Part shown: one piece after another, positions 3,396-4,877 of the stretch
Numbering within the stretch: position 1 is the stretch's first letter
How the letters are laid out: each line of letters starts with the position of its first letter
Assembly (NCBI GenBank): GCA_023130215.1
Contig: JAGMAN010000078.1
Span: 1 to 18,740, forward strand
Length of the DNA stretch: 18,740 bases
Source of the DNA: a bacterium
Lineage (GTDB): Bacteria > NPL-UPA2 > JAGMAN01
Direction of reading: 5' to 3'
Notes under the pieces: generated by a model
What the model was told of the DNA's origin: nothing
Database searches by the model: none
What the model saw: the letters and a program-made list of their open reading frames with translations, nothing else
Made by a program: the position numbers and the translations under genes

Positions 3396-3400
3396 AACTT

Positions 3401-3473
3401 GGGCCCATAGCTCAGTTGGTAGAGCAGCGGACTCATAATCCGTCGGTCGTAGGTTCGAGTCCTACTGGGCCCA
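3401..3473 (+). tRNA. tRNA with CAT anticodon (Ile2 likely, Met possible)
   Basis: A complete 73-base cloverleaf: acceptor stem GGGCCCA with TGGGCCC, D-arm AGCTCAGTTGGTAGAGC, anticodon stem GCGGA/TCCGT around loop CTCATAA (anticodon CAT at 3434-3436), T-arm GTAGG-TTCGAGT-CCTAC, and discriminator A. No CCA is encoded. CAT anticodons belong to initiator Met, elongator Met or the lysidine-modified Ile2 tRNA. The fully paired first acceptor base pair (G1-C72) argues against an initiator. The acceptor pairs C4-G69 and C5-G68 are those known to favour the lysidine enzyme TilS in E. coli, so tRNA-Ile2 is my preferred reading. Confidence 0.95.
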
Positions 3474-3504
3474 TTTGTTGTTTTCCCCTAAACAGCGTTC
3501 CACA

Positions 3505-3528: not shown

Positions 3529-3570
3529 ATCAAGCTATAATCTGAGTAAGTGCAGTGTGGGGAGTGGAAT

Positions 3571-3588
3571 TGTAGTAAAAATGCTACA
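3571..3588. promoter_or_regulatory. Upstream activator-type palindrome, site 1
   Basis: TGTAG-N6-TGCTACA (3571-3588), an imperfect palindrome with half-sites TGTAG and CTACA. A second copy with identical half-sites lies 22 bases downstream. The centre is about 165 bases before the predicted start of the sigma-54 promoter at 3720, a normal distance for an enhancer-binding activator site. A lone TATAAT at 3536-3541 has no good -35 and is not called as a promoter. Confidence 0.6.
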
Positions 3589-3592
3589 CTTG

Positions 3593-3610
3593 TGTAGGCT
3601 TATTGCTACA
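3593..3610. promoter_or_regulatory. Upstream activator-type palindrome, site 2
   Basis: TGTAG-N6-TGCTACA (3593-3610), the same half-sites as site 1 with a different central spacer. The centre-to-centre distance is 22 bases, about two helical turns, so two dimers could bind on the same face of the DNA. The outer symmetry ATTGTAG (3569-3575) with CTACAAT (3606-3612) also links the two sites. Confidence 0.6.
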
Positions 3611-3719
3611 ATTTGACTAATTTGAAGGGCCTGCCAAAAGCAAGGAAGAAAAGCCTTTTATAATCTCAAGTCTCGGGAAATAAAGAGCTTAGAGGAGGGA
3701 GGGAGGCTTTTTGAAAAGC

Positions 3720-3735
3720 TGGCACGAAATTTGCG
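3720..3735 (+). promoter_or_regulatory. Sigma-54 (-24/-12) promoter of lpxD
   Basis: TGGCACG-N4-TTGC with GG (3721-3722) and GC (3733-3734) exactly ten bases apart, as sigma-54 RNA polymerase requires. Every core position of the TGGCACG-N4-TTGC consensus is matched. Transcription would start near 3745-3747, about 97 bases before the preferred lpxD start. Sigma-54 promoters need an ATP-dependent activator, and the tandem palindromes at 3571-3610 are the obvious candidate sites. Confidence 0.8.
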
Positions 3736-3749
3736 TTATAAATCTTATG

Positions 3750-3814
3750 ATCAGTGGCTCTTTTCAGGGGCAGAGTTTCCCCCATTCCTTCTTTCCTCTG
3801 CCCATGCCACTGAT
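3750..3814 (+). promoter_or_regulatory. Nested hairpin at the 5' end of the lpxD transcript
   Basis: Two perfect inverted repeats nest: ATCAGTGGC (3750-3758) with GCCACTGAT (3806-3814), and GGGCAGAG (3768-3775) with CTCTGCCC (3796-3803). The hairpin starts within a few bases of the predicted sigma-54 start and ends about 28 bases before the preferred lpxD ATG, leaving the ribosome-binding site free. No T-run follows, so it is not an intrinsic terminator. A role in mRNA stability or translational control is possible. Confidence 0.6.
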
Positions 3815-3842
3815 TCCTGCACTAAATAGGTGAGTTATGTTG

Positions 3843-4877
3843 ATGTCATTGAGAGAGATAGCTGAATTGGTAGACGGCCAGGTGATCGGCGATGAGAACA
3901 TTGTGATTACTGGAGTGGCGGGTATAAAGGAGGCCAAGGAAGGAGACATAACCTTTGTGGCTAACTCCCGTTATACTTCCTTAATGAACACTACCCAGGC
4001 ATCAGCCATCATCGTTGGTCAGGGAGTGAGTAATAATCATAGGCCACTCATCCAGACAGATGAACCATATCTTGCTTTCACCAAAGTAATGAATTTATTG
4101 GTCAATGGGAACGGGGAGATGATTGCCCCTGCTGGTATCCACCCTACCGTCATCCTCGGGAAGAATGTAGAGCTTGGCAGCAGCGTCTCCCTCCAGCCTC
4201 ATGTAGTCATTGAAGATGATGTTCAAATTGGAGATAGGGCAATTATTTATCCTCATGTTTATATTGGACGCAAAAGCCACATTGGAGATGAGGCCCTGAT
4301 TTATCCCCGGGTGACCATCCGGGAAAAGATTGAGATTGGCAAGCGGGTCATCATTCACAGTGGAACAGTAGTGGGAAGCGATGGATTTGGTTTTGCTCCA
4401 GTAAAAGGGGTTCATCACAAGGTTCCTCAGATCGGGACAGTCATCATTGAAGACGATGTGGAGATTGGAGCCAATGTGACTATAGACCGAGGGACCATTG
4501 GGAAAACGGTCATCGGGAGGGGAACCAAGATAGACAATTTGGTTCAAATTGCTCATAATGTAGTAATTGGTGAGAATTCAATCATCGTTGCCCAGGTAGG
4601 TATTTCCGGCAGCGCCATCCTGGGAAAAGGAGTAACCTTAGCCGGTCAATCTGGAGTGGCTGGCCACGTAACTGTTGGTGATAATACCATCGTTGCTGCC
4701 CGGGCCGGAGTGACCAAGACCATTCCGCCGGACTCCTTCGTCTCCGGATTCCCGGCTAAACCCCATGAGAAAGAGAAGAGGATAAAAGCCAGCCTCCATC
4801 GCCTTCCCGAACTGTGTAAGGCCATTGGCCAGTTGGGAAAGAAGGTAAAGAGATTGGAGGAAAAGCTTAAACAGTAG
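3843..4877 (+). CDS. lpxD: LpxD, UDP-3-O-acyl-glucosamine N-acyltransferase
   Basis: This enzyme transfers a 3-hydroxyacyl chain from ACP to UDP-3-O-acyl-glucosamine, the third step of lipid A synthesis, in the cytoplasm. The 344-residue protein has the LpxD layout: an N-terminal uridine-binding domain (about 1-95), a left-handed beta helix of hexapeptide repeats (about 100-310, many I-G-x-x units), and a basic C-terminal helix ending [11 protein letters not shown]. The catalytic histidine is in IAHNVVIG (His238 from this start; E. coli His239). An ATG at 3837 is in frame, but AGGTGA at 3828-3833 is only three bases from it and nine from the ATG at 3843, so the latter is preferred. The gene stands alone, apart from fabZ or lpxA, with a sigma-54 promoter and a strong terminator. 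That implies separately regulated lipid A acylation. Confidence 0.96.

Follow-up and report, generated by a model that had tools for sequence, protein, structure and literature searches.

A predicted sigma-54-dependent hairpin RNA gene upstream of lpxD in an uncultured bacterial phylum

The window, a stretch of 18,740 nucleotides, was the whole of contig C113 from a 1.01 Mb genome (90% complete) of an uncultured phylum. On its + strand, a tRNA-Met(CAT) gene (3400–3474) was followed by two palindromes, a sigma-54 promoter, a hairpin RNA and lpxD (3837–4877). The lpxD product, UDP-3-O-acylglucosamine N-acyltransferase, carried hexapeptide repeats in addition to the LpxD N-terminal domain (Pfam LpxD, E 8e-20). 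The phylum sample consisted of nine genomes, G000 to G008, with G000 being the genome of the window. G002 belonged to the same genus as G000, G003 to the same order, and G006 and G008 to another family; completeness was 81% for G001, 94% for G004 and 58% for G005. Genome-wide work on G000 covered searches and selected stretches.

The promoter, TGGCACGAAATTTGC (3720–3734, + strand), matched the sigma-54 -24/-12 element with 0 mismatches, the invariant GG and GC lying 10 bp apart as an earlier note on this DNA had reported, and placed the predicted start near 3746. No perfect match of this type arose in 200 shuffles of the window, and perfect sigma-54 sites occurred in only four copies in the 1.01 Mb genome. 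Upstream on the same strand were the two palindromes, candidate activator sites (UAS): TGTAGTAAAAATGCTACA (3571–3588), an exact match to TGTAGN6TGCTACA, and TGTAGGCTTATTGCTACA (3593–3610), at the 22 bp spacing given in the earlier note. They were the only exact matches to this pattern in the genome; 0.01 were expected in the window, and none of the shuffles contained two. Measured from the -12 base, their centres were ~154 and ~132 bp upstream, or at about -166 and -144 if the start is set 12 nt beyond that base, in agreement with the positions proposed before (about -165 and -144).

A gene for sigma-54 itself, rpoN, was present on C23 (E 1e-43), truncated where the contig stops, and four strong enhancer-binding-protein genes were located on C54, C43, C24 and C120. 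Upstream of lpxD, promoter and palindromes were kept in G002, G003, G006 and G008, and the block as a whole was conserved in six genomes from four families (G000, G002, G003, G006, G007 and G008). The palindromes of these genomes followed the consensus TGTRGTN6ACYACA with slight departures. There were two per locus, 20–22 bp apart, in G000, G002, G003 and G007; one was found in G006 and in G008. As rpoN was present and the sites were conserved, the objection which the earlier note had itself raised, namely a lack of both, falls away. Its claim of a full sigma-54/activator architecture held across families, and the genome encoded both rpoN and a strong candidate for the activator. The observation of a predicted sigma-54-dependent, activator-controlled promoter at 3720–3734 was thus confirmed.

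Sigma-54 sites were also seen elsewhere in G000. Three of them (C16:1776, C116:4887 and C120:1241; two perfect, one with 1 mismatch) closely preceded prepilin-like genes with a GFTLIELL motif. Those on C16 and C116 had the upstream element GCCACCGACGGTA in common, and the one on C120 lay 3' of an activator gene, at a distance of ~140 bp. A perfect site at C73:7016 stood before a short Fis-like HTH reading frame. At C88:4470, a 1-mismatch match fell in a structured-looking stretch (GAGGTGAAAGTCCTCGCACC...), which is possibly an intron or some other RNA.

The most conserved element, located between the promoter and lpxD and absent from the earlier note, was a hairpin RNA (3749–3815, + strand). 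Its predicted fold had an outer stem TCAGTGG/CCACTGA (3751–3757 with 3807–3813), an inner stem GGGCAGAG/CTCTGCCC (GGCAGAG/CTCTGCC in the alignment; 3768–3775 with 3796–3803), a variable one-sided bulge between the two, and a 20-nt C/U-rich loop, UUUCCCCCAUUCCUUCUUUC (3776–3795). The loop segment TTCCTTCTTT was identical in all six genomes. Identity was 84% in the RNA core versus 39% in the palindrome-promoter spacer for G000/G003, and 69% versus 14% for G006/G007. The fold z-scores of five genomes were -4.3, -4.2, -3.7, -0.9 and -2.5, two of the five being no better than ~2.5 standard deviations. Covariation was slight (one pair altered on both sides, two pairs on one side), because the stems hardly vary. 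As would be expected of an sRNA gene, the segment was conserved in sequence and predicted structure and was non-coding, with weak support from covariation.

We considered it barely credible that the segment encodes a short peptide in the QSFPHSFF frame. In G000, a frame of 28 aa begins with the ATG at 3748, but G002 and G007 lacked a start codon in this frame after the predicted start, G003 had an indel, and nucleotide identity spanned all codon positions. Since no shared frame had a start codon in either G002 or G007, the hairpin segment is not a leader peptide; this candidate was rejected for want of a conserved start codon or reading frame.

A covariance model first built from four sequences, with G003 and G007 left out, recovered the G003 copy and an unexpected one in G007, each with E ~1e-12. 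The refined model returned the same six genomes, one match each, and no others among 386 genomes; outside the phylum it gave no match in this set, with stricter filters applied. No convincing second copy was found in the genome of the window, the next match scoring 22 bits (E 0.03). A covariance scan of 3550–3850 against Rfam (release 15) gave no family match with E up to 1.

The distance from the -12 base to the stem was 14–16 nt in four of the six genomes, where the predicted start fell a few nt before the stem, and 42–44 nt in the two f5 genomes, which had an extra leader. The predicted spacing of start and stem in the four genomes is what a primary small RNA would be expected to show. The extra leader, ~26 nt long and 5' of the hairpin in G006 and G008, contained another small hairpin (GGTTACCCGAAACC in G006). 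By eye, the CCGA of its ACCCGA could contact the UCGG of the main loop, a possible loop-loop contact.

The first product of the promoter appears to be a hairpin RNA, strongly conserved and not described before, with its own sensor-activator pair. The earlier note was right to place a sigma-54 promoter before lpxD; a reading of it as an lpxD promoter and no more was not supported, since the conserved RNA would be transcribed first. Nor did lpxD follow the promoter everywhere. In G007, the order was an NtrC-type regulator gene, the palindromes, a sigma-54 site (TGGCACATATATTGC), the RNA, an intrinsic terminator (11-bp stem plus T-run) directly after it, and a rhomboid-like gene; lpxD was absent at the locus. 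Thus, the RNA stands alone in G007, where the terminator would define its 3' end; no such end was seen in the window. The view of the earlier note, with sigma-54 control of lpxD as the main point and the hairpin as a mere 5' stabiliser of the mRNA, would account for a promoter and palindromes as described and for lpxD as the next gene on the strand. It is nevertheless very unlikely, as G007 has no lpxD downstream and a mere stabiliser would not need a near-invariant loop with TTCCTTCTTT unchanged in every copy.

In the other five genomes lpxD was the next gene after the RNA, its ATG lying 16–22 nt from the RNA end in G000 and G008 (22 bp in the window). G006 had ~130 bp with a repeat-like insert in between. 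No terminator was visible after the RNA in any of the five. Within the window, we saw no terminator-like site in 3815–3837 nor, on the + strand, any sigma-70-like site ahead of lpxD, which makes read-through into lpxD likely. Co-transcription of lpxD from the sigma-54 promoter is plausible for all five genomes. As the transcript probably runs into lpxD there, the RNA would be 5'-UTR-derived in these genomes. In G004 and G005, lpxD had no RNA, and sigma-70-like sites were located upstream instead. The titles and abstracts returned by a literature search described neither a sigma-54 promoter nor a conserved leader RNA for lpxD.

The same proximity, together with the lack of a terminator and of a sigma-70-like site in the window, would fit a hairpin acting in cis as the 5' leader of lpxD (an attenuator, a riboswitch-like or a protein-binding element), with the sigma-54 promoter serving lpxD. 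We regard this as unlikely: the G007 RNA had the identical loop, the promoter and the palindromes, but a terminator and no lpxD, the insert separates RNA and gene in G006, and G004 and G005 manage lpxD without the RNA. A cis role could exist in addition to an sRNA role.

The activator, left unknown in the earlier note, can now be given a candidate. Directly upstream of the RNA locus, G003, G006, G007 and G008 encoded an NtrC-type response regulator with Response_reg, Sigma54_activat and Fis-type HTH domains. In G000, C54 encoded its ortholog (75% identical to the G003 regulator) and, adjoining it, a sensor kinase whose domains were Cache, HAMP, HisKA and HATPase. All six orthologs grouped in one clade (support 99/93) of a tree that covered 30 regulators. 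The clade was found only in RNA-bearing genomes, with no member from G001, G004 and G005, which lack the RNA; G001 and G005 are incomplete genomes.

In the window, the tRNA-Met gene took the place of the activator gene, and a tRNA was also located upstream of the RNA locus in G002. The G002 regulator ortholog (C131) overlapped or abutted a tRNA gene with its 3' end, at the contig end. These arrangements in G000 and G002 indicate that regulator and RNA were separated in this genus, the palindromes staying with the RNA, and the tRNA genes at both places suggest a rearrangement at tRNA genes. Because activator and RNA are unlinked in G000 and G002, their pairing there rests on orthology and the conserved palindromes.

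Judged from the promoter, the palindromes, the conservation and structure of the RNA, the synteny and co-occurrence of the activator and the terminator of one relative, 3571–3815 is probably the gene of a small RNA under a two-component system and sigma-54. In the proposed circuit, the membrane sensor kinase on C54 (Cache, HAMP, HisKA, HATPase) would phosphorylate the adjacent NtrC-type response regulator, which would then bind the palindromes (TGT-N12-ACA type) and activate sigma-54 RNA polymerase at 3720–3734. The transcript would begin a few bases 5' of the outer stem, with the two stems holding the 20-nt C/U-rich loop open. Acting in trans, the RNA may, as its likeliest mode of action, pair through this loop with purine-rich (Shine-Dalgarno-like) mRNA segments, in most genomes without Hfq; we give loop pairing about an even chance.

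A search for targets with AAAGAAGGAA in five genomes, the G003 matches being mostly left out, showed no enrichment over the reversed pattern and no start-site target common to several genomes. For the wobble-tolerant 20-mer complement of the loop, counts were at or below the control, and matches were largely inside reading frames. Hfq was detected in one of the nine phylum genomes (G003), though several were >90% complete. With no target found and Hfq in a single genome, a role as protein decoy is a serious rival: the RNA would capture an RNA-binding protein recognizing the C/U-rich loop, instead of pairing with mRNAs, in the manner of GlmY for RapZ and the Csr-type RNAs for CsrA. The single conserved loop, exposed on a clamped stem, would suit such a role. 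There was no protein candidate, and the target searches covered short patterns in incomplete genomes. We rate the decoy as somewhat unlikely.

The small RNA reading can be extended to lpxD, as a tentative proposal that we hold at clearly less than even confidence. A phylum-specific sRNA family with its own kinase-regulator pair and sigma-54 promoter would make up the 5' portion of the lpxD mRNA, and one signal would both free a trans-acting RNA, probably Hfq-independent, and raise lipid A acylation. An envelope signal as the input to lpxD control is a guess.

Three known systems have a similar layout. In myxobacteria, the nla19-Pxr region has a regulator gene, a sigma-54 promoter and then an intergenic, conserved stem-loop RNA (PMC5568312), the same order as in G003, G006, G007 and G008. 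However, Pxr has three predicted stem-loops, whereas the phylum RNA has a single long hairpin made up of two stems and a C/U-rich loop; Pxr also has no link with lpxD and belongs to a different phylum (the sequence comparison here being the Rfam scan). In the GlmY/QseEF (GlrKR) system of Enterobacteriaceae, the activator-site consensus is TGTN12ACA (PMC6075780), which the palindromes of the window, as TGTRGTN6ACYACA, also fit. There too, a kinase and an NtrC-type regulator are encoded beside a sigma-54-driven small RNA. By contrast, glmY precedes the kinase gene and also has a sigma-70 promoter that overlaps the sigma-54 one; three sites, IHF and RapZ are further features of that system. The phylum RNA is found 3' of the regulator gene or unlinked, and shows no sequence kinship to glmY according to Rfam. 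Qrr/LuxO of Vibrionaceae combines a sigma-54-dependent sRNA with an NtrC-type activator, often encoded alongside (PMC10162802), and so resembles our locus. It differs in the LuxO site (TTGCAWWWTGCAA), the opposite orientation of the Qrr gene to luxO, its known mRNA targets, and the structure and sequence of the RNA. The resemblance to Pxr, GlmY and Qrr is one of layout; no relation in sequence was found, and we do not assign the phylum RNA to any of those families. What is new is the RNA family, the phylum in which it occurs and, for five of the six genomes, its apparent coupling to lpxD.

If true, the locus would add to the known RNA families one from an uncultured phylum, complete with a circuit of sensor, activator, binding sites, promoter and RNA. 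It would also show that an NtrC-type regulator beside a sigma-54-dependent sRNA recurs beyond Proteobacteria and Myxococcota. The near-invariant loop, in genomes mostly without Hfq, poses a testable question, mRNA pairing or protein capture. Co-transcription of lpxD, if it occurs, would link a step in lipid A synthesis that is usually regarded as constitutive with the signal of this circuit.
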